IMG/VR virus record: IMGVR_UViG_3300002460_000023
Coordinates: 43,986-74,860 of that record
From: a virus
Direction: 5' to 3' (one strand)
Length of the DNA: 30,875 nt
Position numbers and translations under genes: made by a program. The stretch's first letter is position 1. Every line of letters begins with the position of its first letter. Below, piece after piece: positions 8,526-22,693 of this stretch. A model generated the notes under the pieces. The model was not told the DNA's origin. It ran no database searches and saw only the letters and a list, made by a program, of their open reading frames with translations.

Positions 8526-8953
8526 TTACCTTCTACTTGCGTTACTCCAGCTTCGCGGCGGTTGTGGAGCTGGCGGGGCATTGCCTGACCTTGCACTCGC
8601 TTCCCTGATCATCTGGCTAAGCTCACCGTGTATTACTTCAAAGCCCTGCACCACCACGAAGTATTCCTGCATAAACTTGTCAGCGTGTGGCCAGGAGAGC
8701 CGCTCTATCGTTGCCCCGCCAAAGCCCGTTGACCTTATCGCGTGCGAGTTACGGAACAACCAGAGAAGCCAACGGGTTCTACCGGTAAGGTAACTCTCGG
8801 GGCACATGTGGACACTGTAAGGCCCCGCAAAGTGTGGCGGGTTCATCTTCTTGTGAAACCGCCCGTGACAGTTCCGCCCACGGTAGAGCTTCTCTTGTAT
8901 ACAATGCGAGCAAGGCCAGAACTCTCCGCCTAGGACCCAACGAGTGCCAACCT
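8526..8953 (-). CDS. Tail assembly chaperone, -1 frameshift extension (T part of G-T)
   Basis: This frame has no good start of its own; it is open from the slippery site at 8954-8960 to a stop at 8526, in the -1 frame relative to the upstream chaperone. Fusion by a -1 slip gives a 280-residue product, with 142 residues from this part, very close to lambda gpG-T in size and layout. An internal ATG at 8846 lacks a clear Shine-Dalgarno and would discard the Cys-rich start. The extension begins with possible zinc ligands (fusion C153, C156, C167, H168, H172, C189), continues with a Trp-rich helix (RWLLWLFRNS) and a helical SQMIREASARS, and ends in a Pro/Ser-rich tail. In lambda, the T part recruits the tail-tube subunit and the G part binds the tape measure; the same division is likely here. 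Confidence 0.78.
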
Positions 8954-9367
8954 TAAATTTCGGACGTCCCCAGCCGTCAGCACGCTCCAGTTGGCAATAG
9001 CCCGGCCGGTCTCGATGATCAGGTCCTTATAGGGCGTACCCCAGAGCTCGCTGCCGGTGGCAATGTCCTCCCCGTTGAACTTCAGATTCTTGACACCCAC
9101 GATGCCGCCGATGATCTGTTGCTTGGTGATTTCCAGGTTGTTCTCATCATCAGACGGCATATCGTCCTCAGACACACCGCGCGGTTGCTTGAGCTGGAAG
9201 GCCCGGCGACTCCACTCTTCAGAGTCCTGCATGGTGACACACTGAAGACGCATTGTGACTGGGTTAGCGTCAAGCCCCAGCTTGTAGTTGCTCCGCTGCT
9301 TCTCCCACGTCGGAATGAAGTCGATGCACAACCCGTCAGACTGTTTCTCGACCTTGTAGTCGTACAT
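8930..9367 (-). CDS. Tail assembly chaperone, short form (G)
   Basis: 145 residues from ATG 9367, preceded by AGGGGGG 6 bases upstream; an in-frame codon at 9415 would invade the upstream RNA element and lacks a Shine-Dalgarno. Lambda gpG is almost the same length. The N-terminus is beta-type (MYDYKVEKQSDGLCIDFIPT), followed by an acidic linker (SEDDMPSDDENN) and a helix-rich C-terminus ending LRLALVGS. Near its 3' end the in-phase heptamer A AAT TTA allows a -1 slip into the downstream frame. Position between tail tube and tape measure, length, and the slip site define it; sequence similarity alone would not. It should act in the host cytoplasm, coating the tape measure before tube polymerisation. 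Confidence 0.8.
   Translation of the reverse strand: MYDYKVEKQSDGLCIDFIPTWEKQRSNYKLGLDANPVTMRLQCVTMQDSEEWSRRAFQLKQPRGVSEDDMPSDDENNLEITKQQIIGGIVGVKNLKFNGEDIATGSELWGTPYKDLIIETGRAIANWSVLTAGDVRNLRLALVGS
8954..8960 (-). promoter_or_regulatory. Programmed -1 ribosomal frameshift slippery site (A_AAT_TTA)
   Basis: Reading minus strand, codons 136-138 of the short chaperone are CGA AAT TTA, giving the X_XXY_YYZ heptamer in the correct phase. After the slip the tRNAs re-pair on AAA TTT and reading continues AAG GTT GGC with no stop for 142 codons. The zero frame ends only 8 codons later at TAG 8930-8932. The same heptamer is used by Rous sarcoma virus gag-pol. I see only weak downstream pairing (ACTC with GAGT across 17 bases), so the stimulator is uncertain. 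Confidence 0.75.
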
Positions 9368-9421
9368 GTTCAACCCCCCTAACGGAGACGCAAATCGTGG
9401 ACTCCTCCTGAACATTTGTTT

Positions 9422-9472
9422 TATGAAGCAGGACGCCAGGAACGTCTTTTCGGTGATCAGCCTAGCCTCATA
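9422..9472 (-). promoter_or_regulatory. Structured RNA element, copy 2 (downstream of tail-tube gene)
   Basis: In the minus-strand RNA, UAUGAGGC pairs with GCUUCAUA (8 bp with one G-U that can only pair in this strand). The stem continues past a bulged U with AGG/CCU. It encloses the sequence ACCGAAAAG and an inner hairpin GACG-UUCCUGG-CGUC. The element starts about 18 bases after the tail-tube stop. It shares the core motifs and architecture of the element at 19509-19566, with different but still complementary stem bases. There is no U-tract, so it is not a typical terminator. Confidence 0.7.
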
Positions 9473-9490
9473 GACTTAATACCAAGTAGT

Positions 9491-10648
9491 TCAAAATAGC
9501 TCTACGGTTATGTCGTTCTGCCCCGCGCTTGTGCTGAGCGCCCGACCAGAGGCCGACAACGTAACTTCTCCCTCAGCCCCCGGGTCCGTGATAGCGGGCA
9601 CGTCCAACTCGCCCTGGTCCATCAGCACACGCAAACGCTTGGCCGCCGTATCCCCAGCCAACATCGTGATGTCCTGAGCGAGGAACCGTGCCGCCTCGCC
9701 AAAGATGTAGAAATTAGCTCTGGTGAGGTACAGCTCCAGCGTGAGGGACACTTCCCTCCGGCGATCCAGGATGATGGCCGTAGGCGTAGACTGGCCATAT
9801 TCGTCATCCCGAAGCTGGAGGTTGTTGTTCAGCGTAACGGACGCCGAGATTATCGTAACCGCCACGGCGTTCGTCGTGAAGGAACCGGTAATGCCGTGCA
9901 GCGAATCTCCAACCGTGGTAACCGTCGGGGCAAAGGCGGTAACCGTCACACCGCTGGCAACCGTTGTCCGCAATGCCGGGGTGATGTGAATGGTCCCGTT
10001 GCTGCTGATCGACAGGATCTTGTAGCCCGTTGTGGCCGTAGAATCTCCAACCTGGATCAGAATGTCCTGGCTGAAGAAGTCGGCATCGGCGATTTTGATG
10101 TTCGTCACGTCCTTGTTCGCTGTTGCCGACAGAGTTGTCGTACCACCCTGCACGAAGCTCTTGCCAGGACCGCTGAACTCCACCGTGCTGAAGTCCGAGC
10201 CAGACATGTTCAGCACCATCTGGTTACACGCCGCCCCGTAAACACCCTGTACGAAGTGCGCAGCGTGCTTCCAGATGCTCAGGCTGGGCAGATCATCGTC
10301 ATCGGGGGTATACTGCACGGTACTGGTCAAACCGGCCGTAGCGTCCCCCATTGCGGCTTGGTAGAAGTCGGCCATGTCGGGGGCCGTACCAGCCACACCC
10401 GAAGGGGTTATGTAGCCACGGACACGCCAGTCCGCGCTCTTACGCCCGGAGAACCGGTTGTTCTGAAACGACCGGATACCGGTGGTATCGTCTCGCTGCA
10501 ACCTTTCTTGTGCCGGGGTCAGCTCGATTTCCAGAGCTGAAAAGGAACCTGAAGTCGCAGGCATGACCGGAGTACCGTACGTCACCTCCGGCATAACCCA
10601 GCTCTTCCGATTCCATCCAAACGAGCGGTTCGGTACGAAGACAGGCAT
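9491..10648 (-). CDS. Major tail (tube) protein with inserted beta domain
   Basis: 385 residues; ATG with AGGAG about 12 bases upstream, itself preceded by a GGGGGG run. Features of siphovirus tube proteins are visible: an N-terminal arm (FGWNRKSWVMPEVTYGTPV), VRGYITPSGVAGTAPDMADF, and a C-terminal REVSLTLELYLTRANFYIF segment with an alpha helix packed against the tube strand. Residues about 165-255 (from SFVQGGTTTLSATANKD to GVTVTAFAP) look like an added beta domain, likely exposed on the tail surface. Position directly before the chaperone pair supports the assignment. It polymerises around the tape measure to form the tube. No sheath gene is nearby, so the tail is non-contractile. It is one of the two genes followed by the structured RNA element. 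Confidence 0.85.
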   Translation of the reverse strand: MPVFVPNRSFGWNRKSWVMPEVTYGTPVMPATSGSFSALEIELTPAQERLQRDDTTGIRSFQNNRFSGRKSADWRVRGYITPSGVAGTAPDMADFYQAAMGDATAGLTSTVQYTPDDDDLPSLSIWKHAAHFVQGVYGAACNQMVLNMSGSDFSTVEFSGPGKSFVQGGTTTLSATANKDVTNIKIADADFFSQDILIQVGDSTATTGYKILSISSNGTIHITPALRTTVASGVTVTAFAPTVTTVGDSLHGITGSFTTNAVAVTIISASVTLNNNLQLRDDEYGQSTPTAIILDRRREVSLTLELYLTRANFYIFGEAARFLAQDITMLAGDTAAKRLRVLMDQGELDVPAITDPGAEGEVTLSASGRALSTSAGQNDITVELF

Positions 10649-10649
10649 T

Positions 10650-10787
10650 TCAGGTTATCTCCTGACCCCCCAGGATTTTTGCCCTGTTTCTCATGCGACT
10701 ATGTACAGTAGGATGACACACCACACAAATAGACTCTAGGTTTACTGCTCTGTCATCGTGCTTATTGCCATTGATGTGGTGCACATG
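10650..10787 (-). pseudogene. HNH endonuclease remnant (C-terminal half only)
   Basis: Directly after the TAG of the 87-residue protein, the same frame reads HVHHINGNKHDDRAVNLESI followed by CVVCHPTVHSRMRNRA and ends at a TGA two bases before the tail-tube ATG. This is the second half of an HNH nuclease: HH-x-N-G metal-binding core, N-L-x-x-[LI]-C-x-x-C-H and H-S. The first half with the initial CxxC knuckle is absent and no start codon or Shine-Dalgarno precedes it, so it should not be expressed as an enzyme. It is only distantly like the intact HNH gene at 18721-19473. Translation by read-through of the TAG is possible in principle. The tail-tube Shine-Dalgarno lies inside the remnant, showing that the fragment now serves as leader sequence. 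Confidence 0.8.
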
Positions 10788-11051
10788 CTACTTCGTGGGT
10801 GCCTTCCTCTTTGCTACTGCGGGCTCGGGTGGTTCAGAGGGCGGGGCGGCTGGTCGCTGCCCCGGCGTCTTGTCGATCCACATGATCTCCGGTTCCCCGC
10901 GACGCATCATCATGCCGTTCATCGCCAGCAGTTGCCCGGCCGTTGCCTGATCTACCATCACTTCCTGACCGTGCTGGACCCGTGCTACTCCCTGTTCCGC
11001 CTGCACGTTCCTTGTCGCTTTGCCCATGTACTGCAGGATCATCTTCGCCAC
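10788..11051 (-). CDS. Small virion-associated protein overprinting the glycosyltransferase end
   Basis: 87 residues, GTG start, with a full consensus Shine-Dalgarno (AAGGAGGTGA) about 7 bases upstream, stronger than that of almost any other gene here. The ORF begins inside the giant glycosyltransferase gene and overlaps its last 218 bases in another frame. The segment HGQEVMVDQATAGQLLAMNGMMMRRG resembles short phage structural accessory proteins whose form is roughly G-x-V-x-V-[DE]-x-x-x-A-x-x-L-[IL]-x-x-G. The C-terminal third is Pro/Ala/Lys-rich. It precedes the tail-tube gene, with an HNH remnant between them. I cannot assign a firm function. The strong ribosome-binding site and protein-like sequence argue that it is real, and that the overlapping tail of the glycosyltransferase is the secondary frame. 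Confidence 0.7.
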   Translation of the reverse strand: MAKMILQYMGKATRNVQAEQGVARVQHGQEVMVDQATAGQLLAMNGMMMRRGEPEIMWIDKTPGQRPAAPPSEPPEPAVAKRKAPTK

Positions 11052-13440
11052 TCTGACTCACCTCCTTCAGCTCCATGATTTCGTAGATTCTACGCATTTC
11101 TTCTTCGTGGTTGTGGTATCGCTCTACAAACGCCCGGTACTGGTCACTGCGAACAGGCGTTTCACTGATGAGGCTGACAGCATCTGCTATGGTATCAAAC
11201 ACAACAGGCAAGTCCGCAAAGTCCTCCTGGCCTTCATAAATTTCACGGGCTCCAGGCCAAGCGTGCACCACAGGCTTGATACCCTTTGCCATCGCCTCAA
11301 CTACGCTGTAGGGACTACCTTCACAGATAGAGCAGTTGAGCACCTGCCCAATCTTGTGCTTGTCCAACGCCGCGTTTACATCTGTCTGCCAACCAACCCA
11401 ACGAATGTTGTTGCGCAGGCCCATCTGCTCTACCATGTTCATCGCATATTCTTCAAGCTCTTGCCCCTGCCAACGTCCCATAACGGTCAGGGTGTACTTA
11501 CTGTCCAACCGTACCAGTTCCAACAGAATCTGTAACAGCATCGGGATACCTTTCTTCCAGTTCAGGTATCCAATGTACACCAGATTATAGCGGTCATCTT
11601 TCCGCTGCTGGAAGTCCCACCGGTCTAGCTGAACACTGGAAGGAATTACATGCTCCTGACAGTTTCCAGTGATGTTACCAAAGCGGTGAGCCGCCTGCCG
11701 GATATGCTCGCTAGTGAAGATGATGTGGTCAACCTTCTTGAAGTCAACAGCCTGTAGCATCCCTTGGTAGGGTTCGTACCGGTGCACACGGCAGATAACA
11801 CCAGCGTCAGGGTTCTGGCGAGTGGCCTTCACAAGGTTAGCGTCACCCCATTCGAAGAACAGCCAGTCAGCCCCACCAACAAACCGACTGTCGAAAGACT
11901 TGTATACTTCTACTTGGTGACCCCGTGCCACAAAGGCATTGATGATGGGTCCGCTGAAACTGCCAATAGCGTCGAACACGATGATGTTCGCACCGTTGGC
12001 CGCTTTCCTAGCGAGCACCCGGGCTTCAGCCAACCGCCAGAGGGCATGCGCCTCAGCATCTTGCGGCAGGTATTCCAGCCAGCGCTCCGCAGCAGAAAGG
12101 GTCTGCTCCCAGTTCTTCTGCTTCTCGTATAGCTGAGCAAGAAGCTTCCACGGGAGCCAAGTGTAGCACTCCTTCCGGATCGTTAGAATCGTGCTGGTAG
12201 GCAACTTCACGCTGATCGCCTGTTTGAACCAGTGCTCTGCCTCCAGGAGGTCTTCACGGGCCTCTGCGATTTGACCCAACGAAATCAGCGTCTCCGCACG
12301 ATACCAGCAGAGTTTTCTGGCTTCGTGTAGACAAACCAGCACACGCTCCACGACAACAGACTCTTCTTCCCCCCGCTGTGCCCCAAGAGACATTTCCAGT
12401 GTGGCCAACTGCTGCCAACAGTGATACTTGTAAGCCAGCGTTGGCGTTATCTTCGCCAGGTACAGGTACCACGCCTTGGCTGTTTCATACTCGTGGTGGT
12501 CCATGTAAGTGTTAGCAAGGTAGTAGGATGCCCGTTCGTCGAAGGGGTCCCGACCCAGCATCTGCAAGAGGTTAGCGGTATTCATTGTACCCCGCTGCAC
12601 CGCCCGCTCCTGCTCCCGCGCCTCTGGCATCATGTGATAGAAGCGAATGACCGGGGCAAACACTGAAACGTTAGCAGCACCAACAAGCTGATGGTGCGTG
12701 TCATACCGGTAGAAATGGTCCTGAATGTTCCTAAAGAGCCTGGGCTGTGTGAACACCATCCCTTGTTCTTCTTCGCTCTTCGGGTTCATCACAGTGGCCG
12801 CCATAACCACCGAGTAGGGAGCAGGCTCCTCACCCTTCTTGTGGTTTACGGCCCCCTCGGTGTAAACACGTATGAAGGGCAGGCTCGCGTTGTCAAGCTC
12901 CTCGTGCCCATCCAGGATCAGAATCCACTGGCCACGAACCTTGCGCTTGGCATTGTTACGCGCCCAAGCGAAGTCGTTCCGCCACTTGAAGCGAAAAACT
13001 ACATCGCCAGCCACCAGCGCGACCTTCTCAGTGTCATCGGTACAACTATCATCCACGCCAATGACAACTTCGTCAACAACTTCACGGACGCTTTCTATGG
13101 ACCGCGCCAGCGTGCGTCCTTCATTCTTGACAATCATCATCAAGGTAATGAAGGGGGCCACAATAGGCGTGTCCTTGAGAACCTCTCCCTCAAAAGGTAG
13201 AGGCCAGAACTTCATACCGTCGTAGTCAACCTTTGGCCGGGGATCATCGGCATCCAGCTCAGGCTGGAAACGCGGCCGGAGCTCATTGTAACGAGCAAGG
13301 TCTGCTTCTTGCGTTACAAGTTCGCCTGCAAGAAACCTCTTGTGGAGCTGTGAATACTCCACACACTCTTGCGGCAGCGCCACCGCAAGGTCAGCCTTCT
13401 GCTCTTCAGCCCCTTCGTCCTGCTCAATCTCTTCGGACAC
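10834..13440 (-). CDS. GT2-TPR-GT4 double glycosyltransferase
   Basis: 868 residues, GTG start with AGGGGGG 8 bases upstream. Residues about 95-275 form a GT-A (GT2 family) domain: FITLMMIVKNEGRTLARSIE at 98-117, a VDDSCTDDTE motif at 129-138 and DGHEE at 177-181 in the position of the metal-binding DxD. Residues about 300-475 are helical tetratricopeptide-like repeats (ASYYLANTYMDHHEYETAKA, AEHWFKQAI, WEQTLSAAERWLEYLPQDAEA). Residues about 484-795 are a GT-B (GT4-like) domain with VYIGYLNWKKG and EGSPYSVVEAMAKG, carrying the E-x7-E pair E707/E715. The last 72 residues are low complexity, translated across the start of the next gene. No secretion or membrane segment. It should transfer sugars in the cytoplasm, and its place among tail genes suggests a virion protein acceptor. 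Confidence 0.87.
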   Translation of the reverse strand: MSEEIEQDEGAEEQKADLAVALPQECVEYSQLHKRFLAGELVTQEADLARYNELRPRFQPELDADDPRPKVDYDGMKFWPLPFEGEVLKDTPIVAPFITLMMIVKNEGRTLARSIESVREVVDEVVIGVDDSCTDDTEKVALVAGDVVFRFKWRNDFAWARNNAKRKVRGQWILILDGHEELDNASLPFIRVYTEGAVNHKKGEEPAPYSVVMAATVMNPKSEEEQGMVFTQPRLFRNIQDHFYRYDTHHQLVGAANVSVFAPVIRFYHMMPEAREQERAVQRGTMNTANLLQMLGRDPFDERASYYLANTYMDHHEYETAKAWYLYLAKITPTLAYKYHCWQQLATLEMSLGAQRGEEESVVVERVLVCLHEARKLCWYRAETLISLGQIAEAREDLLEAEHWFKQAISVKLPTSTILTIRKECYTWLPWKLLAQLYEKQKNWEQTLSAAERWLEYLPQDAEAHALWRLAEARVLARKAANGANIIVFDAIGSFSGPIINAFVARGHQVEVYKSFDSRFVGGADWLFFEWGDANLVKATRQNPDAGVICRVHRYEPYQGMLQAVDFKKVDHIIFTSEHIRQAAHRFGNITGNCQEHVIPSSVQLDRWDFQQRKDDRYNLVYIGYLNWKKGIPMLLQILLELVRLDSKYTLTVMGRWQGQELEEYAMNMVEQMGLRNNIRWVGWQTDVNAALDKHKIGQVLNCSICEGSPYSVVEAMAKGIKPVVHAWPGAREIYEGQEDFADLPVVFDTIADAVSLISETPVRSDQYRAFVERYHNHEEEMRRIYEIMELKEVSQSGEDDPAVHGQSDKERAGGTGSSTGPARSGSDGRSGNGRATAGDERHDDASRGTGDHVDRQDAGAATSRPAL

Positions 13441-13460
13441 CTTTGTGACCCCCCTACGTG

Positions 13461-13919
13461 TTAGACGTCAGAACTCTCGTGCATTGTTACTTCAAGCACG
13501 ATTTCCACGGTACGCAGTTCCTGTTTCAGATTACCCACTATATCTGTTGAAATGATACGGAAGCTGCCGCAGAGGTTGTTAAGGCTCAAGTCCTTTACCC
13601 CGGCAGAGCGGTGTGTACAGATAGCCTTCTTCATGTCTGCCATGAAGAGCAAAGCTCTCTCGTTGGGGTGCTTTGTATCCTTGGTGTAACCCCACAACAG
13701 GAGTGTCCAGGCGCCCGTCCTATCTTGGTTGCCTATCTGCCCACCAGCGAAACGGTCGGTATCGATGAGAATGTAAACAACTGGAAAGTGATTGTGGTCT
13801 GTTGGCAGCTCAAACTTCTTCCAATGAACTTCCTTCACCACTTCCGTGTAGGACCCGGTGCCGTCAATCTCTTCGAGCCGCAGCTCCAACTCGTCCAGTA
13901 TGGCAGTGTGAACGCTCAC
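13461..13919 (-). CDS. Tail terminator / tail completion protein
   Basis: 152 residues; GTG start overlapping the previous stop as GTGA. The opening helix (SVHTAILDELELRLEEIDG) followed by a beta-rich alpha/beta domain (HFPVVYILIDTD, AWTLLLWGYTKD) and a conserved-looking helix (NERALLFMADMKKAI) is the layout of tail terminator proteins (lambda gpU, SPP1 gp17 group). These cap the tail tube and join it to the head. The order connector, gp10-like, terminator, then tail tube is the usual one, interrupted here by the glycosyltransferase. The family call rests on layout and position. Confidence 0.65.
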   Translation of the reverse strand: MSVHTAILDELELRLEEIDGTGSYTEVVKEVHWKKFELPTDHNHFPVVYILIDTDRFAGGQIGNQDRTGAWTLLLWGYTKDTKHPNERALLFMADMKKAICTHRSAGVKDLSLNNLCGSFRIISTDIVGNLKQELRTVEIVLEVTMHESSDV

Positions 13920-14488
13920 TTGGATAAGCTCGAAACAACGGTGCGGCCGTACACAGCAGCGAGAGTAGCATCAATGGATGCTTTGTTATCTTGCAAAGCC
14001 GGGCCTAGGAAGGGCCGCTTGGGCATGCGTACTTGCTTCACAAGAAGGAAGACAGGCTCACCCGTTTCCCCGTCGATGACAACATACCCGCTACCCGACG
14101 GCTGCACAAAGCTGTTGGTGAGCTCCCTAGGGCTCCTGTAGCCATCTTTGAGGGGTATTGCCAAATAGCTCTGATGCCTAGGGCGGATAACACCACCCTT
14201 TTCGTGAATTGCAGCGTACTTGGAATCCGCGATAACTTCAGCGATCATTCCAGTCGCTGTCATTCGTGGCGGGGGTGTTCTCAGACTGTTGTAAAGCCTT
14301 TTTGTAATGACATCTAGCCGTGTCGGTCTGGGCCCCCGCAGATACCGATGCCGAGCCGTGTAGACAACCTTCTTTTGAATAGCCACTAGGGCAAAAAACA
14401 TGTTAGCACGAAGCCTTACATCCAGCAGCTTCACAAGAGAAGCGTACTGGGGGCCAACCAGATTGCCCCTGATAGTGAGCGTCAGCAC
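13916..14488 (-). CDS. HK97 gp10-like head-tail adaptor protein
   Basis: 190 residues, GTG start in a TAGTG overlap with the connector stop; AAGGG lies 8 bases upstream. It has the helix-first, beta-later layout of gp10/SPP1 gp16.1-like proteins: LDVRLRANMFFALVAIQKKV, SRYAAIHEKGG-like segment (YAAIHEKGGVIRP), a lysine-rich substrate face, and the conserved MPKRPFLGPAL near the C-terminus. In this family the protein joins the connector to the tail terminator or completes the tail. The RPFLGPAL motif with the preceding HEKGG is distinctive, so the family is fairly sure; the exact assembly step is inferred from synteny. Confidence 0.75.
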   Translation of the reverse strand: MLTLTIRGNLVGPQYASLVKLLDVRLRANMFFALVAIQKKVVYTARHRYLRGPRPTRLDVITKRLYNSLRTPPPRMTATGMIAEVIADSKYAAIHEKGGVIRPRHQSYLAIPLKDGYRSPRELTNSFVQPSGSGYVVIDGETGEPVFLLVKQVRMPKRPFLGPALQDNKASIDATLAAVYGRTVVSSLSK

Positions 14489-15492
14489 TAGAGAACCCTT
14501 CCAGCGTAGTCACGGATTACCCGAATAATCCGCTTAGGCACGTCCCCAGCCAGATAGTTGATAGTGCCCGGCTGACCGCTGGTACTGCTGATACCAAACC
14601 GGTTGGAACCACCCCCAGTTCCGCTTGTCTGTTCGTACAGGTAGGCAACCCACTCGCAAGCCGCCCACTTAAGGTCATCGGGAACCGTGCCAGAGGGAGT
14701 GTTCGTTGTATAAGCTAGCGCCCCTGTCTTGTTAGCGGCCGAAGTAGCACCCGTGTCAAAGCCAATGAGAGAGGCAAAATTAGCGTGCGCGGCAACCCAT
14801 CCGGAACCAGCCGTATGGAGCATTACCTCAAAGGTAGAGCCCGCGCTCGTAATCGTGAATTTACGGAGACCGGAGTCGTAGGTTACTGTAAACGTATCTG
14901 GCGTCAACGCCGCTGTCAGGGCCACATCAATGGCCGCTGCCAGTTCTTCCGCTGTATAATCCTGGCCAAAGTCAGGCGGGGGGATTGTTGCATTGACCCA
15001 AGAAGGTGTCACGGCAGTACGGTTAACACGCAACAGGTCGTTGAAGCCGGCTTGCACCTTGTAGAGGGCATAACCACCGACGTAGACACACTTGATATTC
15101 TGCTTGGAAGGGTAGAACATACCCCCACCGATGCGCTGCCCACCACCAAGCAGCTTGACCCAACCGTAAGGCGTGATGACATAGGTGTCTGTAGCGAGGG
15201 CTGTCGAGTAGTCTAGGCCCGGATCATCATACAGGTTTGTCACTGACACAACAGGCTTACCCTTCAACGGGATGCTGTAACGCCACGTCTCCCCGTCGAA
15301 GAATTCGGTGTGTTCCCCACGGATAAACGACCGGCCGGTTATTCTCTCAACCTCGCCAGTCACGATGTTAATGAGCTGCGTAATGGTCGTATCCTTGTCC
15401 TCGTCAGCATCGGCAACCGTAAACCCGCGATGCCTAGAGACTTCGGCGAGGCTACAAAGAGCCCGTGGACTGATTGCGATTGAACTTGCCAT
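14488..15492 (-). CDS. Head-tail connector protein with large inserted domain
   Basis: 334 residues, ATG start, GGGTAGG a few bases upstream. Residues 1-142 and 270-334 together make an ordinary HK97 gp6/SPP1 gp15-like connector: helix TTITQLINIVTGEVERITGR, a small beta hairpin (FDGETWRYSIPLKGKPVVSV), CVYVGGYA, then VPDDLKWAACEWVAYLYEQT. Between YVGGYA (about 142) and VPDDLK (about 270) lies an extra 125-residue block: AEELAAAIDVALTAAL, DTFTVTYDSGLRKFTITSAG and ASLIGFDTGATSA. Such blocks occur in phage virion proteins as surface beta domains. The connector ring sits under the portal; the insertion probably projects outside. Typical family members are 100-120 residues for the core, so the protein is roughly two to three times the normal length. 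Confidence 0.78.
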   Translation of the reverse strand: MASSIAISPRALCSLAEVSRHRGFTVADADEDKDTTITQLINIVTGEVERITGRSFIRGEHTEFFDGETWRYSIPLKGKPVVSVTNLYDDPGLDYSTALATDTYVITPYGWVKLLGGGQRIGGGMFYPSKQNIKCVYVGGYALYKVQAGFNDLLRVNRTAVTPSWVNATIPPPDFGQDYTAEELAAAIDVALTAALTPDTFTVTYDSGLRKFTITSAGSTFEVMLHTAGSGWVAAHANFASLIGFDTGATSAANKTGALAYTTNTPSGTVPDDLKWAACEWVAYLYEQTSGTGGGSNRFGISSTSGQPGTINYLAGDVPKRIIRVIRDYAGRVL

Positions 15493-15522
15493 TGCCTACC
15501 CGACAACCCCCATGCTCTGCTT

Positions 15523-16017
15523 CTACTGAGACGCAGCCACCGCTTTGGCAGCCAGCTTTGCCATGATGAAGTCCACCAGCATTTCCTTACCCCCGGCCGC
15601 CGCAGTACCGCGGGGAACCATTTCACCTTCTCCGGCTTCCTGTGCGGCCATTTTTCTGAGAACGTTCAAGCTCTTCACCAACAGGTCCTCACGGGTAACC
15701 CCTCCTGGCAGGTCCCCGGCGTCAACGACGGACAGTGCTTCGCCGTTTGTTCCGCCGCCTGCGTCCTGACCCACGGTTTCCACACGCGCCGCCTTGTTGC
15801 CAATCCAGAAGTTCTTCGGAAACTTCTGCATGAGGACCCGTGTCTGCTGGGGTGTCAACATCTGGCGGCGAGTAGCTGTGTCGAAGAAAATCCCGGATAC
15901 CCCACCGTTGTAAGCATCCCGGCCGTAGCCCGGCTGGAAGTTCACGGGAACCATACCATCAGGGTCCAGATACATCTGAATCAGCTCTTCCACCGCTTCT
16001 ACGCTCAGATCAGACAT
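15523..16017 (-). CDS. Hypothetical protein of the neck region
   Basis: 164 residues; ATG overlaps the end of the glycosyltransferase gene by 8 bases, with a strong AGGAGGT 9 bases upstream. I do not recognise the family. The N-terminal half (MSDLSVEAVEELIQMYLDPD, GMVPVNFQPGYG, YNGGVSGIFFDTATRRQMLT) is compact alpha/beta; the middle (GQDAGGGTNGEALSVVDA) is flexible; the end is helical and Ala/Lys-rich (MLVDFIMAKLAAKAVAAS). It lies between the glycosyltransferase and the connector and is probably translationally coupled to the former. Similarly placed small genes in other phages encode minor head proteins, but nothing here confirms that. Confidence 0.6.
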   Translation of the reverse strand: MSDLSVEAVEELIQMYLDPDGMVPVNFQPGYGRDAYNGGVSGIFFDTATRRQMLTPQQTRVLMQKFPKNFWIGNKAARVETVGQDAGGGTNGEALSVVDAGDLPGGVTREDLLVKSLNVLRKMAAQEAGEGEMVPRGTAAAGGKEMLVDFIMAKLAAKAVAASQ

Positions 16018-17041
16018 TAACCTCTACCTCCTGATTGGTTTCCTTGTCCTCACGCTTCTCTACGGGTTCTGGCTCCTTGACCCCCAAAGCCGACAGCATG
16101 GCGTGTCGAGCTTGGGCATAGCTAAACGTGCTGTGAACCGCCCTGTAAGCAAACTCGGAAACTTCCTTGTAGAAGGCGGTGTCCATCGCCAGTTGAATTA
16201 GAGCTGAAAACTTGCCTTCAGTGTCTTCCCGGTCGAAGCAAATCCGCGGGAAAAGCCGCCGCATCGCATAGCTGCTCGCGTTGCCTACACAGGGCACGCC
16301 AAGAGCAGCACACTCGCCGACGACACGCCCAAAGATGGAACACGTGTGCGTGTCAAAGACAACCCAGCTCTTGGCAAGGCGGCGAATCCAGGCCGCGTAG
16401 TTTTCCTGGCTCAAAAACCAGTCAAACATGTTGGGCAGGCGGTTTGTCAGTTCTTGGGGTGGCGCCACCATTGCCAGAGACACTCCGTTGCCAACGTGTT
16501 TGCCAAAGCCCTCGCTCAGCCGCTTCTGCACGGCACTCGTTAGAAGCCACGCCTCCGAAATCTGCATATCGTAGCGATGCACTACGGAATGAATGTTACG
16601 CGGGCGCTCGTTATAGCGCACGGCAAATGAAGAAACCGTAGTGCTTATCGGATGGGGAATAACGTGGACGGGCCTGTGCAGTGCTGTTTCCAGCAAGTGA
16701 GCCCCACGCGGCTCAACGTGGAAGATCACGTTGGCCTTATCCAGCTCTCTAAGCCATAAGCGAGCTTGGTCGAAGTGCCTGGACCACGAATCTACCGCGT
16801 AGTCGCAGTTTACTACAAGCTGGCAAGAAGTGCCACGGCAAGCCTCGGATAGCTCGCCAAGAAGCCCAAGGCTTGCCGTGGTCAGGTTCAGATGAACAGC
16901 ATCGAAGTTTGCCGGTACCTGCTTTGGCGGCATCGAGCCTACCTGACCCCGCATGGCGCTAGGCCAGTGAAACAGACCCGATAGAAGCAGTCCCTCATCA
17001 AGGGCAGGCTCGGGCTGGTAGCTGTAGAGCAAGTAGCGCAT
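16010..17041 (-). CDS. GT-B (GT4-like) glycosyltransferase
   Basis: 343 residues, ATG with GGGGG 8 bases upstream. It resembles GT-B glycosyltransferases: an N-terminal Rossmann half with SCQLVVNCDYAVDSW and KANVIFHVEPRGAHLLET, a linker HRPVHVIPHPIS typical of the domain hinge, and a C-terminal nucleotide-sugar domain with WVVFDTHTCSIFGRVVGECA followed by ALGVPCVGN, where the E in VGECAALG corresponds to the second Glu of the E-x7-E motif. The first Glu is not obvious, so substrate retention or inversion cannot be stated. The C-terminal 25 residues are Glu/Lys-rich and disordered. It is inserted between a decoration gene and the connector, without a sugar-nucleotide synthesis operon, which points to modification of the particle rather than of host polysaccharide. 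It may act with the larger GT2-TPR-GT4 enzyme. Confidence 0.75.
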   Translation of the reverse strand: MRYLLYSYQPEPALDEGLLLSGLFHWPSAMRGQVGSMPPKQVPANFDAVHLNLTTASLGLLGELSEACRGTSCQLVVNCDYAVDSWSRHFDQARLWLRELDKANVIFHVEPRGAHLLETALHRPVHVIPHPISTTVSSFAVRYNERPRNIHSVVHRYDMQISEAWLLTSAVQKRLSEGFGKHVGNGVSLAMVAPPQELTNRLPNMFDWFLSQENYAAWIRRLAKSWVVFDTHTCSIFGRVVGECAALGVPCVGNASSYAMRRLFPRICFDREDTEGKFSALIQLAMDTAFYKEVSEFAYRAVHSTFSYAQARHAMLSALGVKEPEPVEKREDKETNQEVEVNV

Positions 17042-17058
17042 TGAATAGACCCCCGTGT

Positions 17059-17105
17059 TCAGTTAGTTAGCGGTAGCTTTACTTTCGCCACCGCTAACTA
17101 ACTGA
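17059..17105 (-). promoter_or_regulatory. 16-bp perfect inverted repeat after the decoration gene
   Basis: TCAGTTAGTTAGCGGT at 17059-17074 is exactly complementary to 17090-17105, with a 15-base loop. In the minus-strand transcript the hairpin begins 9 bases after the stop of the gene at 17115-18209 and ends 17 bases before the glycosyltransferase ATG. It is followed by a GGGGG ribosome-binding run, not by a U-tract. It may stabilise the upstream message or attenuate the glycosyltransferase; it also carries stop codons in several frames. Confidence 0.85.
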
Positions 17106-17114
17106 TACGCGCTA

Positions 17115-18209
17115 TCAGCTCACCAAGCGGGCGCCGTCCTGGATGCGGAAGCCCCACTTGACCAGCACGACCTGATTCTCCGTGTAGGTCGTCCCACCGG
17201 GCATGAAGGCGATGATGCGGAGGTCCTGCGTTGTGGAACCCGCATCGTTCGTCAGCTTGTGCCCAGTGAACCAAATGAGGGCCTTGTCTTCAATGACCGT
17301 GGACCCCAGCGGGAAGTAGCTGTAGCCGTCCACCTGGACCCACGCCACGTCGTAGTCGGCCCCGCCAGTACCCCCGATGGCCACGGGGCCAAGGTGGTTG
17401 GAACCCGCCGCTGAAGCTGCGGCGACAGTGCCACCCGGCTGTGCCAACGCCGCGATGTTTCCACGGCTCAACGTTGAGCCACTGGTGATGACGAACGGCT
17501 GGCAGCGTCCGTAGACCGGGCCATAGCCGTTGCCGAACTTGTAGCGCACGATCTCATCGACGGACATGTCCTCACCAGCAGCCACGTCGGCGTCCACTTC
17601 CAGGCGGATGGCTTCCACCTTGTTGCGCGCGAAGCTGGTGATGGCCACTTCCAGCCGCTGCCAGTTGGTACCGGCGAGCATGGCGGGCACGTTAACAGCC
17701 GTCTGCCACACACCGTCGTTCTTGATGTTCAGCTTCAGATCGCCCGCGGTACCGAAGTCAGCCGTGGTGTCCGACTTGGCCCACCACCCCAGGAAGTCGG
17801 TGTCTTCCCAGTTGGCTGACCCAACTTCCTGAGCCAACCCGGTACCGGCACCCGTCGGAATGGCGGCCCCACCGTCGATGTCGTTCGTTGAGACGTACAC
17901 CGTCCCCTCATCGGCGGCCAGGATCTGGGCCGTGGCCGTGATCTTGAATCCAGCGCCAACGACCGCCGTGGCAACCGTGGCCACGTCCAGCGTACCGCTT
18001 GTCGTTTCATCCCACGTTGCGACCGCCCCGGCGTGCACCAGACGAATAAAGTTGATACCGTTGGCGAGCCGGTGCTCATCCAGAAAGTCCAGCAGCCCTT
18101 CAGCGCGGTCGTTGTCGTTGTCGCTGACCTTGAAAGCATTCCGCAGGCTGCCGACGTGCGACCGAACACGCGCCAACTGGTTGGAAACCCCTGCTTGGCC
18201 GTAGCCCAT
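17115..18209 (-). CDS. Head decoration / head-fibre-like protein (putative)
   Basis: 364 residues; ATG with AAAGGGG 8 bases upstream and a hairpin just before it. The first 50 residues are helical (GVSNQLARVRSHVGSLRNAF, AEGLLDFLDEHR), as in capsid-anchoring segments. The remainder is a Gly/Ala/Thr-rich beta protein. Residues about 75-225 resemble a carbohydrate-binding or concanavalin-type jelly roll: GWWAKSDTTADF, NWQRLEVAITSF, NKVEAIRLEVDADVAA. The rest ends in VLVKWGFRIQDGARLVS. The codons are richer in G and C at third positions than those of the minor genes, like the capsid gene, which suits high expression. Placement after the capsid gene and two small paralogues suggests an outer capsid decoration protein. 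The family is not recognised with certainty. Confidence 0.6.
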   Translation of the reverse strand: MGYGQAGVSNQLARVRSHVGSLRNAFKVSDNDNDRAEGLLDFLDEHRLANGINFIRLVHAGAVATWDETTSGTLDVATVATAVVGAGFKITATAQILAADEGTVYVSTNDIDGGAAIPTGAGTGLAQEVGSANWEDTDFLGWWAKSDTTADFGTAGDLKLNIKNDGVWQTAVNVPAMLAGTNWQRLEVAITSFARNKVEAIRLEVDADVAAGEDMSVDEIVRYKFGNGYGPVYGRCQPFVITSGSTLSRGNIAALAQPGGTVAAASAAGSNHLGPVAIGGTGGADYDVAWVQVDGYSYFPLGSTVIEDKALIWFTGHKLTNDAGSTTQDLRIIAFMPGGTTYTENQVVLVKWGFRIQDGARLVS

Positions 18210-18226
18210 TGTTACTTTCCCCTTTC

Positions 18227-18260
18227 GCGCCTAAATCTCTCTTACGAGAGCCGTGGGCGC
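18227..18260 (-). promoter_or_regulatory. Leader hairpin with GTAA tetraloop
   Basis: In the minus-strand RNA, GCGCC pairs with GGCGC around an inner CUCUC-GUAA-GAGAG hairpin, leaving an internal loop of 5 by 5 bases. GUAA is a GNRA tetraloop. The structure ends 17 bases before the ATG of the gene at 17115-18209, leaving its Shine-Dalgarno free. A second GC-rich stem (18284-18304) precedes it. It may stabilise the 5' end of the message or mark a processing site. Confidence 0.6.
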
Positions 18261-18283
18261 ATTTTGGAGGGTCTAACCTGTTT

Positions 18284-18304
18284 GCCGGGGCAAGCCCGCC
18301 CGGC
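18284..18304 (-). promoter_or_regulatory. GC-rich hairpin after the small paralogue pair
   Basis: GCCGGG at 18284-18289 is complementary to 18299-18304, with a 9-base loop. In the transcript it lies 13 bases after the stop of the 67-residue protein. The following bases are AAACAGG, so there is no U-tract and no simple intrinsic terminator. With the leader hairpin at 18227-18260 it fills most of the 108-base gap 18210-18317. Confidence 0.5.
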
Positions 18305-18317
18305 TTCGGGTTTCCGC

Positions 18318-18521
18318 TTACGCGACGGTAAACGTGTCTGTAGAAGGTGTGTAAGTGCCCGTTGTTGCTGCGGGGTTATCCGGTGGTAACCCGCTGACCA
18401 GCGTGAAGTCAATCGTGCCATCTGTGTTGATGGTGTAAGTGTCGATGTTGTCCGGGTGCGTGTCCAGACGCTTTGCCAAAAACCACTGAGGACGCTTCTG
18501 CAAGGCGGCGATGGCGGACAT
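18318..18521 (-). CDS. Small paralogous structural protein B
   Basis: 67 residues, ATG, AGAGGT 5 bases upstream. It is a paralogue of the gene just upstream (18531-18743): both share the pattern DNI-x-T-x-T, then a short acidic turn, TIDFTL, a Gly/Leu-rich loop and GTY-x-P-x-x-x-T-x-T near the C-terminus. The sequence is all-beta in style apart from an N-terminal helix (IAALQKRPQWFLAKRLD). No Cys, membrane segment or catalytic motif. Tandem duplication immediately downstream of the capsid and HNH genes suggests capsid cement or decoration subunits; the pair may form hetero-oligomers. The role is inferred from context. Confidence 0.65.
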   Translation of the reverse strand: MSAIAALQKRPQWFLAKRLDTHPDNIDTYTINTDGTIDFTLVSGLPPDNPAATTGTYTPSTDTFTVA

Positions 18522-18530
18522 TTCGACCTC

Positions 18531-18743
18531 TTACGGTGCTACCAACGTGTGAGTCTGCTTGTGGGGGTTGTAGGTTCCCACTGTAGCCGTGCCGCCATCC
18601 AGAGCCCCTGTCAGCGTGAAGTCGATCGTATGCCCAGAAGGGTCGGCCGGCAACGTGATGGTAGCGATGTTATCAACCGGAGTGTTGATCGTCCCCGCGA
18701 TGATGCGCTTCCACCGGCGTTCATTGTGGCTGATTGTTGGCAT
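18531..18743 (-). CDS. Small paralogous structural protein A
   Basis: 70 residues; ATG overlaps the 3' end of the HNH gene by 23 bases, with GGGAGG 5 bases upstream. It aligns along its length with the next gene: NERRWKRIIAGTINTPVDNI, then HTIDFTL, GTYNPHKQTHTL. An N-terminal basic helix precedes five or so predicted short strands. It probably continued the capsid operon before the HNH gene inserted. Candidates are decoration or stabilisation proteins; nothing more specific can be read from sequence alone. Confidence 0.65.
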   Translation of the reverse strand: MPTISHNERRWKRIIAGTINTPVDNIATITLPADPSGHTIDFTLTGALDGGTATVGTYNPHKQTHTLVAP

Positions 18744-19473
18744 TGCTGCCTCCCTGTTTCTTCTTCGTTGACCAGAAAACCTTGCTCCTAGCTTCTGAGA
18801 CGCTTTTGCTGATCCGTGCCTTATGCTCCTCTGTCAGAGGCTTACCACCAAAATGGATCCGTGCATGGCAACGACGGCATACGAGCTTTAGCTTGCTTAT
18901 TTCGTTTTTGTTGATGTCACCATCAAGGTGATGAACCTCAAGCCTGCTTTCGCTGCCATCGTGCCCGCACAATTCGCAGCAGCCGCCAGACCGCTCCCAG
19001 ACGTCTTTCCGAATGTAGTGAAATTCCCGAGGATAGTACTTGTGGGACGGGTACCTCTCGGGTGTGACACCGCCTTTCCAGTTGGGATTGCCTTCAGCCA
19101 CGATGCTAACCCTAGGCCCGCGCATGCTGGCGATGTGCTCTTTCGTCTTCGCTCTACCATACAGCGGGTGGTCGGGGCCTTGCCGGCTCCTCATGGGGTC
19201 TTGCCGCATCTTAGCACGGGCTTCTTCGCTATGCTTCTTACCCGCGAAGGGGTTACCCGTACCAGTACAGCCTTTCTTACGACAGGCTGCTGAACAGAAG
19301 CGATAACCCTCAGACTTGATCCGGACCGCTGGGTAAACCCCAGGAAACCCCGCGCCACACACTTCACAGCAGATACGCAGCCTACCATACTTCCTGAAGT
19401 GCATTTCCAACAGTGGCTTCCAGTTGGGATTCTTAGTGCCAGCAACCTTTCGTGCAAACGCGCTATTACCCAT
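18721..19473 (-). CDS. HNH homing endonuclease with NUMOD3-like repeats
   Basis: 250 residues, ATG, GAGGAG 8 bases upstream. Domains in order: a four-Cys zinc knuckle (C35/C36, C39 and C60, C64); two or three NUMOD3-like DNA-binding motifs (GNPFAGKKHSEEARAKM at about 73-89, HPLYGRAKTKEHIASMRG at 102-119, KPLTEEHKARISKSVSEA at 211-228); and an HNH nuclease (about 155-207) with C165/C166 and C169, the VHHLDGD core with H181 and H182, then CRRCH at 199-203 and H207. All metal and catalytic positions appear intact. It is a free-standing gene inserted between the capsid gene and the small decoration genes. Such enzymes cut homologous sites in related phages and spread by repair. I see no intron splice structure around it. 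Confidence 0.9.
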   Translation of the reverse strand: MGNSAFARKVAGTKNPNWKPLLEMHFRKYGRLRICCEVCGAGFPGVYPAVRIKSEGYRFCSAACRKKGCTGTGNPFAGKKHSEEARAKMRQDPMRSRQGPDHPLYGRAKTKEHIASMRGPRVSIVAEGNPNWKGGVTPERYPSHKYYPREFHYIRKDVWERSGGCCELCGHDGSESRLEVHHLDGDINKNEISKLKLVCRRCHARIHFGGKPLTEEHKARISKSVSEARSKVFWSTKKKQGGSNANNQPQ

Positions 19474-19508
19474 TGCGTAGTCTCCTCTGGTAGAGACCTG
19501 GAAGGTTA

Positions 19509-19566
19509 CTGTGAAGGGCAGGCACTCCAGAAAGTGCTTTTCGGTAGCGAACCTAGCCCTTCACAG
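19509..19566 (-). promoter_or_regulatory. Structured RNA element, copy 1 (downstream of capsid gene)
   Basis: In the minus-strand RNA, CUGUGAAGGGC pairs with GCCCUUCACAG (11 bp, perfect), then a bulged U and AGG/CCU. It encloses ACCGAAAAG and an inner hairpin GCACU-UUCUGG-AGUGC. It begins about 25 bases after the capsid stop and ends about 35 bases before the HNH start. The element at 9422-9472, after the tail-tube gene, has the same plan and conserved loop motifs with different stem bases. No U-tract follows. Confidence 0.75.
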
Positions 19567-19590: not shown

Positions 19591-21141
19591 TCACGATGCG
19601 AAGTCGAAGAGGTATCCGCAGGGAAGGTCTGCGGTCGGCCGGACACCCTTGAAGTCGCGACGGAGCGTCGCGATCATGATGTTCCGCTGCTGCGACGGTC
19701 GGTTCTCCATTTCCACGGTCACGGCACGCTTCTCACCGAAGACGAAGCTGGGCCGGTGCACGAGCAGGCTCTGCGTCTTCGTCAGGGTTGTGCCGTCGTA
19801 GATGCCCGTAGCGTTGAGATCTGACCGCACGAACTCACTGACCACGATGTTCGACCCGTCGAACGATCCCATCGTGCCGCTGAAGATGGTCGCCCGAGAC
19901 CCGAAAACGTCCTGCGTGATGACCTCGGCCAAGCTGAGCATCCGCAGGTACCCAGCCATGGAAACGATCCAGACCAAGTCCTCCGGCCGCATCCCGTAGC
20001 GACCCATCGCCTTGCGGACGTTGCGGTGGTTGACCGTGGTGAAGGCTTCGGTACCAGTGTTGGCGTCGATCTGTGCCGCTGCCCCTGCGAGCTTGCGGAG
20101 GCCACTCCACGCAGCCTTACGCACGTCATCAGGGTTGGCAGCGAAGTGCGCAGCCAGCCCGGTGTCGATGTGCGAAGCCGCTGTGTCCCCGTTGATGACC
20201 GCGTTTTCGATGCCGTCGGCCAGCCCGAGTACGATCTTCTCCCGAACCAGCGGGAGAACGGCGATGATCGAGTCTTCGACGAATTCGTAGGACAGGTTCA
20301 CGCGCACCCCGAACGTCCGGGGGGTCAACGTGATCTGCCCCGTGGTGAAGTCGCTGGACCGCAGCGACCCGGGTTCGTCCGTGGTTGCTTCCTCAACGAT
20401 GTAAGCCGTCGGCCTGCCGGTCGTTGTGGGCAGGATCATCGTCGGGGCCGTACCCATCGGGATGGTTCGGAACAGCCCGGCCACGAGGGTAGCCAGCCGG
20501 ACTTCCTGGATCAGGTCGGCGGAATACTCCGTCGGAATCCACTCTGCGCCGGCCCCGGTGTTGCTCGTCGCAAGAGCCTTGATGGTCCCATCGGTCTTCC
20601 GGTAGCCGAACGCCTTCGTGACGTCCACATCGGCCCGTTTTGCAGCCTCATGCAGGGGCGTCAGAGCCTCCTGGAGACGGTGCCATGCCTTCAGGCCCTT
20701 GGTGCCCTTGATGTACTGCTCCGGAACCTCACCGCTGTTCTCGTCGATCTTGACGTTCTGAAGCTGCTTGCTAGCCCGCATCATCGCCAGCATGGTCACT
20801 TCGTCGTTCAGAGCCTGGATGTCCTTGATGTACGGGTCATCGCTCTGGCTCTGCATGACCTCGTGCACCGTCCCCCCGAACTTCCAGAAGGACTTGGACA
20901 GGTAGTAAGACGTGTCCGGATAGGCCGAAGCCTCTTCCCGGATCGAGCGCCGGTTCATCTCCCGCGCGATCTGCCGCTGGATTGGCATGACGTCTGTGAG
21001 CATGCGCTCACCGGTCTCCCGTGCGCCAGGAGAAAGATCGCCAGGAGCCGCGCCTACGTCTTCATTCTGGCGCTGGATCACCTGCTGCCCGGCCGTTGTC
21101 CCCCCAGCAAGCTCGCTTTGCAGTCTTTCCAACTCGGTCAT
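19591..21141 (-). CDS. Major capsid protein (HK97 fold)
   Basis: 516 residues, ATG with AGAGGA 7 bases upstream. It has an N-terminal delta-like helical region (1-180; MTELERLQSELAGGTTAGQQ, MPIQRQIAREMNRRSIREEA) and then the HK97-like shell domain: AEWIPTEYSADLIQEVR, the E-loop/A-domain segment TPRTFGVRVNLSYEFVEDSI, GLADGIENAVINGDTA, YGMRPEDLVWIVSMAGYL, and a C-terminal VEMENRPSQQRNIMIATLRR strand. The extended N-terminal part is probably processed by the protease encoded upstream, though I cannot mark the cleavage point. It assembles the icosahedral shell with the portal, scaffold and decoration proteins. GC-rich third codon positions suggest strong expression. Confidence 0.95.
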   Translation of the reverse strand: MTELERLQSELAGGTTAGQQVIQRQNEDVGAAPGDLSPGARETGERMLTDVMPIQRQIAREMNRRSIREEASAYPDTSYYLSKSFWKFGGTVHEVMQSQSDDPYIKDIQALNDEVTMLAMMRASKQLQNVKIDENSGEVPEQYIKGTKGLKAWHRLQEALTPLHEAAKRADVDVTKAFGYRKTDGTIKALATSNTGAGAEWIPTEYSADLIQEVRLATLVAGLFRTIPMGTAPTMILPTTTGRPTAYIVEEATTDEPGSLRSSDFTTGQITLTPRTFGVRVNLSYEFVEDSIIAVLPLVREKIVLGLADGIENAVINGDTAASHIDTGLAAHFAANPDDVRKAAWSGLRKLAGAAAQIDANTGTEAFTTVNHRNVRKAMGRYGMRPEDLVWIVSMAGYLRMLSLAEVITQDVFGSRATIFSGTMGSFDGSNIVVSEFVRSDLNATGIYDGTTLTKTQSLLVHRPSFVFGEKRAVTVEMENRPSQQRNIMIATLRRDFKGVRPTADLPCGYLFDFAS

Positions 21142-21197: not shown

Positions 21198-21758
21198 TTA
21201 CGCCGCAGCCGCTAGCGGCCTTCCATTCAGGGAGATACCAGCCTTGCTGAGAACGCCCCGAACACGGAGCGCCTCTTCGTTCTTCCTCTCAGGGTCCATC
21301 GTGTCATCAGCGGCAACGGCAGAAAGCCGCTTACGTGCCGACGTGAGGAGGCCCTCCTTCTCGGCCTCCGTGAGCTGGGCCTTGACAACAGGCGTTGCCG
21401 GGGCGGGTTCAGACGTCACAACCGGAGCGATGACGGCTTTAACGGGCTCAGGCTTTGGCGCTTCCGGTGTAGAGATTTCCGCGTTGGCGGTTTCCTCCCC
21501 GGAGATCAGCGTAAGCACCTTTGAGCACGCTGCCGACATGGTGCCGATTGCCTCGGACAGCCCCTTTGTCGCCAGGAGAACATCAGCCTTCTTCTGCTCC
21601 TCTGGCTTTGGGGCCTCATTGAAAGAACGCACCACGCTCACCAGCTCTGTGAGAAGTGCGTCCACGCCCTCTGCGCTCTCCAACTGCACACCGTGCGTAG
21701 AGCAGAGATTGGAAATCGCCTGCTCCGCACTCTTGGGCACAGCGTAGACCTTGAACAT
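21198..21758 (-). CDS. Internally initiated scaffold protein (putative)
   Basis: In frame with the protease gene, ATG 21758 (codon 273 of the protease from its TTG) is preceded by AAGGAGGG, one of the strongest Shine-Dalgarno matches in the window, about 11 bases upstream. Translation from here gives 186 residues that match the scaffold-like part: helical N-terminus (KSAEQAISNLCSTHG), central Pro-rich linker and a charged C-terminal helix. The arrangement copies lambda C/Nu3, in which a scaffold is made from an internal start in the protease gene. The evidence is the ribosome-binding site and domain boundary; the spacing is longer than ideal, so confidence is moderate. Confidence 0.5.
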   Translation of the reverse strand: MFKVYAVPKSAEQAISNLCSTHGVQLESAEGVDALLTELVSVVRSFNEAPKPEEQKKADVLLATKGLSEAIGTMSAACSKVLTLISGEETANAEISTPEAPKPEPVKAVIAPVVTSEPAPATPVVKAQLTEAEKEGLLTSARKRLSAVAADDTMDPERKNEEALRVRGVLSKAGISLNGRPLAAAA

Positions 21759-22574: not shown

Positions 22575-22693
22575 TGAGCTGCCTCCAAAAGAAAACACCC
22601 GAGCAAAGAACACCCGCCTTGTGCTGAAGCCTAGGCGGCGTGAACCTTGTCCGGGTGCGGTACGCTGTTTACTCGTTACCCGAATCGGGGCTT

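Follow-up and report, generated by a model that had tools for sequence, protein, structure and literature searches.

An int-alpA-type RNA before phage genes combines two predicted alternative loop pairings with a self-complementary loop and may sense its own transcript

The window analyzed here, the whole stretch of 30,875 nucleotides (nt) from the virus record IMGVR_UViG_3300002460_000023, contained two copies of a structured RNA element on its minus strand (Table 1). Copy A was located between the genes of the major head protein and of an HNH/NUMOD3 homing-type endonuclease, and copy B between the gene of the tail tube protein and a gene of 145 amino acids (aa). Both appeared to be messenger RNA (mRNA) leaders of the genes downstream. 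The original prediction had described the two elements as conserved RNAs that follow shortly after the stops of the capsid and tail-tube genes. Their location and strand were borne out, the distances to these stops were 19-25 nt, and PHROG and Pfam searches confirmed the identities of both upstream genes. No third copy was found in the whole 74.9-kb virus record.

Each copy formed a three-way junction of the stems P1, P2, and P3, arranged in the order P1, UA, P2, GAAAA, P3, CU, and return to P1, with the motifs CUAG, CGAAAAG, and CCUG. The stems of the two copies differed in sequence yet remained paired, including the G-U pair in P1 of copy B, as had been predicted. P1 and P3 had already been recognized, whereas P2 and the pairings with the downstream sequence had been overlooked: ACCGAAAAG had been taken as single-stranded, but its ACC closed the small hairpin P2 (GG..CC) in the family fold. 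AGG/CCU was invariant and therefore contributed no evidence of covariation; its invariance neither supported nor excluded it as an extension of P1.

The element had been reported as unrecognized, together with the advice to search Rfam. This search assigned it to a known family, int-alpA (RF02996), which matched at 19497-19563 of the minus strand with 36.8 bits (cut-off 35.8) and was the sole Rfam family above threshold in the window. Copy B scored 33.1 bits (E=1.8e-5 in its 211-nt stretch), below the gathering score of 35.8, and was therefore classed as a close relative below threshold. The Rfam family shared with the window copies the three-way junction with conserved CUAG, CGAAAAG, and CCUG, a consensus P2 loop (gAcgu) that likewise held a self-complementary stretch, and a conserved 3' AgGG at the position expected for the site R1 described below. 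In contrast, int-alpA is typed by Rfam as “Gene; sRNA” with an unpaired tail, whereas the element here is predicted to be a cis leader with R1/R2 pairings that leads many types of genes. The placement between integrase and alpA, which belongs to the name only and lies outside the Rfam model, was not found for the window copies, and the relatives preceded many types of genes. Two features, the predicted alternative pairings of the P3 loop (R1/R2) and the self-complementary P2 loop, are missing from the Rfam model. RF02996 was unmentioned in the literature searched, where int-alpA appeared merely as a list entry. The source paper of int-alpA is reportedly that of Weinberg et al. in 2017, and its authors may already have noticed part of these features. 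Mu-gpT-DE in Rfam did not match copy A or B even at permissive E-values, and the terminator, microRNA-like, and other weak Rfam matches to both copies were at chance level. The original prediction had also argued against a terminator, and indeed no U-tract followed either copy, the linker in the family being just moderately U-rich (T 0.4-0.5). A hammerhead-like reading of CUAG...GAAAA was rejected on the core letters, which did not fit.

Relatives of the element were collected by scans in which the core letters were fixed and the stems and loops were left free. The invariance of the core was therefore partly ascertained, and the statistics of the loops, R1, and R2 rest on the free positions; the family sample consists of the matches listed by these scans and is not a random one. 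The core-letter pattern was present in at least 120 viral stretches; almost all of these had stems that matched, and further scans added more. A scan with the commonest form of the element gave 40 loci in bacterial genomes. The bacterial loci were distributed over Alpha-, Beta-, Gamma-, and Deltaproteobacteria, Planctomycetota, Bacteroidetes, Clostridia, Streptomyces, Nitrospirae, and others, and most of those rescored with RF02996 reached 42-57 bits. Named phages with the element were Salmonella BIS08P22, Edwardsiella GF-2, Acinetobacter vB_AbaS_Gln, and the deep-sea phage D6E, and most phage records held a single copy. A protein search found no close relative of the window capsid and one near-identical contig for the tail tube. 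In a family alignment of 56 sequences, 87.0% of the alignment cells were paired versus 61.6% after shuffling, and the covariation score was 0.620 versus 0.145 after shuffling and 0.14 or less for slid versions. Together with the RF02996 scores, this alignment upheld the view of a conserved, covarying structured RNA rather than a chance match or a DNA repeat.

The relatives showed to which neighboring gene the element belongs. In some 200 non-redundant relatives, the element ended about 40 nt ahead of the start of the following gene, and the start codon of the next open reading frame (ORF) was 30-49 nt past the junction in 227 of 256 newly fetched elements; these codons were picked by a script favoring Shine-Dalgarno-like sequence, a bias that the re-paired controls below retain. 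The proteins downstream were homing endonucleases (HNH, GIY-YIG, NUMOD), DUF1376/primosomal and O-like replication proteins, primases, Rha, antirepressors, integrase, Dam, tail assembly chaperones, and small unknown proteins, which share no metabolite or pathway. A prophage leader (L175) preceded a DUF551 gene. The upstream genes were diverse, with major head proteins in a minority, and the upstream gene was on the opposite strand in 16 of 204 relatives. A role as a 3' stability or processing element of the capsid and tail-tube messages, as first suggested, would agree with the short distance to the preceding stops, both in the window and in the relatives (median 25 nt from the same-strand stop to CUAG). 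However, the constant spacing to the start codon, the covariation of the P3 loop with the Shine-Dalgarno sequence, and the upstream genes on the opposite strand tie the element to the downstream gene, and such a 3' role is scarcely credible. Among the functions guessed originally, translation control was the best supported, but of the downstream gene and not of the structural message.

The P3 loop was complementary to two sites downstream of the junction, the proximal site R1 and the site R2 at the Shine-Dalgarno sequence. In copy A, the loop UUCUGG could pair with CCAGG in R1 or with CCAGA in R2, within CCAGAGGAG, at nearly equal estimated energies, and the estimated strengths of the two pairings were also alike on average in the family. 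Exact 5-mer complements of the P3 loop were counted in the R1 zone and in the 18 nt that directly precede the start codon, with re-paired loops and sites as controls. Among 85 non-redundant elements of a first set, 55 had a complement in the R1 zone (shuffled mean 4.6, maximum 12 of 500), 61 had one before the start codon (mean 9.2, maximum 19 of 500), and 43 had both (mean 1.8, maximum 7 of 500); control stretches held a complement in 12/85 upstream and 15/85 in coding sequence. The unchanged test on 110 held-out elements gave 70 in the R1 zone (shuffled mean 5.9, maximum 11 of 300), 70 before the start codon (mean 11.6, maximum 23 of 300), and 48 with both (re-paired mean 1.9, maximum 6 of 300). 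All 43 first-set elements with both sites used shared loop nucleotides for R1 and R2, and the two pairings are therefore mutually exclusive. R1 started 14.3 +/- 1.4 nt past the junction, independent of the length of P1, and the bases paired in R2 peaked 10-12 nt before the start codon, which is the Shine-Dalgarno position. The fixed position before the start codon and the pairing that covaries with the Shine-Dalgarno sequence were thus found in the family, with an exact 5-mer R2 in copy A and a weak one in copy B. These results indicate that the element very probably serves the downstream gene as a translational leader and forms alternative pairings. A trans-acting small RNA, the type given by Rfam to int-alpA, would suit the compact fold, but the covariation of the P3 loop in cis with the Shine-Dalgarno sequence and the constant spacing to the start codon make it very unlikely.

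Two further observations concern the R1 region. The linker between P1 and R1 (core +7 to +15) was rich in U and held hardly any G at +11 and +12, a composition that would suit a strand lying in a helix groove. One group of viral contigs (L018, L020, L059, L074, L107, and others) had the leader before a primase/polymerase-like protein of about 950 aa, and R1 looked shorter or absent in several of them.

The P2 loops were highly variable in sequence but remained self-complementary. In the class with a 3-base-pair (bp) stem and a 7-nt loop, a palindromic tetramer was found exactly at positions 3-6 in 39 of 42 distinct loops, whereas shuffling within columns gave 3.7 on average and at most 11 in 2000 trials. 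Two unpaired bases lay 5' and one, mostly a purine, 3' of the palindrome, and the loops used 15 of the 16 tetramers that can form a palindrome. In the class with a 2-bp stem (such as GGGUAGCUCCC), the central dinucleotide was self-complementary in 24/26, and since the full tetramer was palindromic in just 11/26, this class is weaker evidence. A scan for 4-bp stems with GANN loops, in which NN was left open, returned GACG in 89 of 90 copies and GAUA in one, and all 27 distinct GANN stem-loops ended in a self-complementary dinucleotide (GACG, GAUA, or GAAU, mostly GACG). The P3 loops showed no excess of self-complementarity (22/214 versus 45.5 after shuffling). A self-complementary loop was thus kept through sequence change in the family and in copy B, whose loop CUGAUCA was self-complementary (UGAUCA), with GAUC at positions 3-6. 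A dyad at the DNA level as the origin of these palindromes was disfavored, because they were off-center by half a base in the 7-nt class and almost every palindromic tetramer occurred. The palindrome of a loop is unusable within a single RNA and most records hold one copy, and the natural partner is therefore another transcript of the same gene. Five paralogous leaders (L461-L465) before five related HNH genes in the 122.7-kb record G160 carried the palindromes CCGG, AGCU, ACGU, CUAG, and GUAC, as expected if leaders should not cross-pair. Because the P2 loops differ between leaders, each could recognize only its own kind. Homodimerization through P2 is probable on this evidence.

In the proposed mechanism, the leaders would control translation of the downstream gene, which is the HNH endonuclease gene for copy A and the tail-chaperone-like gene for copy B. 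The three-way junction with its fixed strands UA, GAAAA, and CU would present the P3 loop. We infer that pairing with R2 represses translation and that pairing with R1 frees the Shine-Dalgarno sequence: with the loop on R1, about 14 nt past the junction, this sequence would be open (presumed ON), and with the loop on R2 it would be covered (presumed OFF). Two transcripts of the same gene would pair P2 to P2 in the manner of a kissing dimer, and homodimerization would tilt the choice between R1 and R2, so that the leader would respond to the concentration of its own message. A high abundance of the message, as in a late phage operon, would hold down the output; repression is the preferred sign, because strongly transcribed operons house many of the targets, endonucleases and chaperones. 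The sequence statistics of the family support the fold, both pairings of the P3 loop, the location ahead of the start codon, and the self-complementarity of the P2 loop, and we put the probability of leader, alternative pairings, and self-pairing loop together at roughly 0.6. That P2 dimers form in cells and that dimerization drives the switch, in this direction, we infer from sequence as well; dimer-driven switching is possible but somewhat doubtful. The full proposal is still more tentative, namely that a phage-wide class of mRNA leaders may sense the concentration of their own transcripts, P2 homodimerization deciding whether the P3 loop pairs with a decoy site or with the Shine-Dalgarno sequence, as a gene-dosage control with the RNA itself as the ligand.

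Several observations weighed against this proposal. About 16% of the held-out elements lacked either exact 5-mer site (at least one site in 92/110), R2 of copy B was weak, and the exact R1 and R2 matches were short in both window copies (4-5 nt), and therefore the strength of the evidence comes from the family. The P2 loop of copy A, UCGCU, was not a full palindrome and had a self-complementary central GC only. A kissing interaction of 4 bp on a stem of 2-3 bp has to be stabilized by other parts of the fold. In addition, the loops of co-resident copies, in tables read by eye from the sequences, did not differ more often than expected by chance: of 46 pairs in 29 multi-copy records, 4 were alike, against 4.3 expected.

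The same data can be read without sensing of the message. The leader may be a static brake that limits translation of selfish or little-needed genes within strongly transcribed operons, R1 merely tuning the masking of the Shine-Dalgarno sequence; the similar average strengths of the two pairings would agree with it, as would the presence, among the targets, of genes for homing endonucleases and tail chaperones that follow those of major head and tail tube proteins. However, a simple hairpin would suffice for a brake, and two competing sites and self-complementary P2 loops would be unneeded, which makes this explanation quite improbable. The leader may otherwise be an orphan riboswitch or repressor site, in which a widespread ligand or host protein would bind the invariant junction and decide between R1 and R2, the P2 kissing dimer contributing to the binding fold. 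The nearly invariant junction strands UA, GAAAA, and CU across phages of many hosts would suit such a site, and an alternative pairing over the Shine-Dalgarno sequence is typical of translational riboswitches. Palindromic kissing loops of two bases are used by the guanidine-II (mini-ykkC) riboswitch, also a leader (PMC7357161). In contrast, the downstream genes had no common metabolite or pathway, the P2 loop varied freely as long as it was self-complementary, unlike a binding pocket, and the junction invariance was partly ascertained by the scans. A ligand-binding leader is therefore unlikely, and self-pairing of the message is the preferred reading.

Among the genes of the window, the 145-aa gene after copy B had no Pfam or PHROG match of its own. 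Its position, the usual chaperone place, suggests that it is tail-assembly-chaperone-like, and PHROG tail-assembly chaperones followed other family members (L102, L025). The ORF was listed at 8930-9415 and opened inside R1 of copy B without a Shine-Dalgarno sequence, whereas the ATG at 9365-9367 followed AGGGGGG and is the likelier start. Apart from the leaders, an 868-aa protein with two glycosyltransferase regions was encoded at 10834-13440 among the tail genes, between the tail tube and the tail terminator, and a 471-aa protein encoded at 21198-22613, beside the capsid gene, showed matches to a head-maturation protease and to the N-terminal portion of a capsid PHROG (phrog_617).

Table 1. 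Positions of the two RNA elements, their predicted parts, and the adjoining genes in the window
Feature	Position	Strand	Evidence or remark
Copy A, int-alpA-type three-way junction	19509..19566	(-)	Rfam RF02996 36.8 bits; family covariation
Copy A P1	19556-19566 with 19509-19519	(-)	11 bp
Copy A junction UA	19554-19555	(-)	
Copy A P2	19551-19553/19543-19545	(-)	loop UCGCU 19546-19550
Copy A junction GAAAA	19538-19542	(-)	
Copy A P3	19533-19537/19522-19526	(-)	loop UUCUGG 19527-19532
Copy A junction CU	19520-19521	(-)	
Copy A R1, UUCCAGG	19497..19503	(-)	proximal P3-loop partner, CUGG:CCAG plus wobble; duplex estimate -7.9 kcal/mol
Copy A R2/Shine-Dalgarno, CCAGAGGAG	19482..19490	(-)	CCAGA exact complement of P3-loop UCUGG; overlaps ribosome binding site; -8.3 kcal/mol
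HNH/NUMOD3 homing-type endonuclease, 250 aa, led by copy A	18721..19473	(-)	PHROG HNH endonuclease 5.2e-15; Pfam NUMOD3 2.3e-10
Major head protein gene, upstream of copy A	19591..21141	(-)	PHROG 1.4e-21
Copy B, fold as copy A	9422..9472	(-)	RF02996 33.1 bits, slightly under cut-off
Copy B P1	9465-9472 with 9422-9429	(-)	8 bp, including G-U present in minus-strand RNA only
Copy B P2	9461-9462/9452-9453	(-)	7-nt loop CUGAUCA 9454-9460
Copy B junction GAAAA	9447-9451	(-)	
Copy B P3	9443-9446/9432-9435	(-)	
Copy B junction CU	9430-9431	(-)	
Copy B R1, UUCAGGA	9406..9412	(-)	complement of P3-loop UCCUG; -8.2 kcal/mol
Copy B Shine-Dalgarno, UUAGGGGGG	9374..9382	(-)	weak, wobble-rich R2 partner (AGGGG) of P3 loop; -5.1 kcal/mol
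145-aa gene led by copy B	8930..9367	(-)	position between tail tube and tape-measure side
Tail tube protein gene, upstream of copy B	9491..10648	(-)	Pfam Phage_tube_2 2.8e-12

The P2 loops resembled kissing loops of retroviruses. The GACG tetraloop forms a kissing dimer of two base pairs in the Moloney viruses, and the palindrome of the dimerization initiation site (DIS) of human immunodeficiency virus type 1 (HIV-1) is flanked by two purines 5' and one 3' (PMC7357161, PMC4066764, PMC516450). The phage leaders showed the GACG tetraloop on a 4-bp stem as in Moloney murine leukemia and sarcoma viruses, and two unpaired bases 5' and one, mostly a purine, 3' of the palindrome in the 7-nt class as in the HIV-1 DIS. 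However, the retroviral loops act in genomic RNA for packaging, whereas those here lie in mRNA leaders of double-stranded DNA phages, with palindromes of 4 nt instead of 6 nt and many loop sequences, and no homology is implied. The guanidine-II riboswitch is likewise a leader with palindromic kissing-type loops, but it has two hairpins in one RNA, fixed ACGR loops, and a small-molecule ligand, whereas the element here has one P2 per RNA and varied loops. Translational riboswitches with a pseudoknot over the Shine-Dalgarno sequence, such as the preQ1 classes, also pair a loop with the ribosome binding site; the int-alpA-type RNA differs in that two partners, nearly equal in sequence, compete for the loop, and it has a self-pairing hairpin in addition. 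Homing-endonuclease leaders of T4 that hide the ribosome binding site also restrain endonuclease translation by leader structure, but are simple hairpins and no conserved family of three-way junctions.

These results offer a concrete and testable function for the orphan Rfam family int-alpA and showed that it is widespread among phages of many bacterial phyla, with homing endonuclease and replication genes downstream. If the leaders do dimerize in cells, this would be a cis-regulation with the abundance of the message itself as the signal, for which no precedent was found in the literature searched, and the varied self-complementary loops would form a natural set of orthogonal kissing loops.

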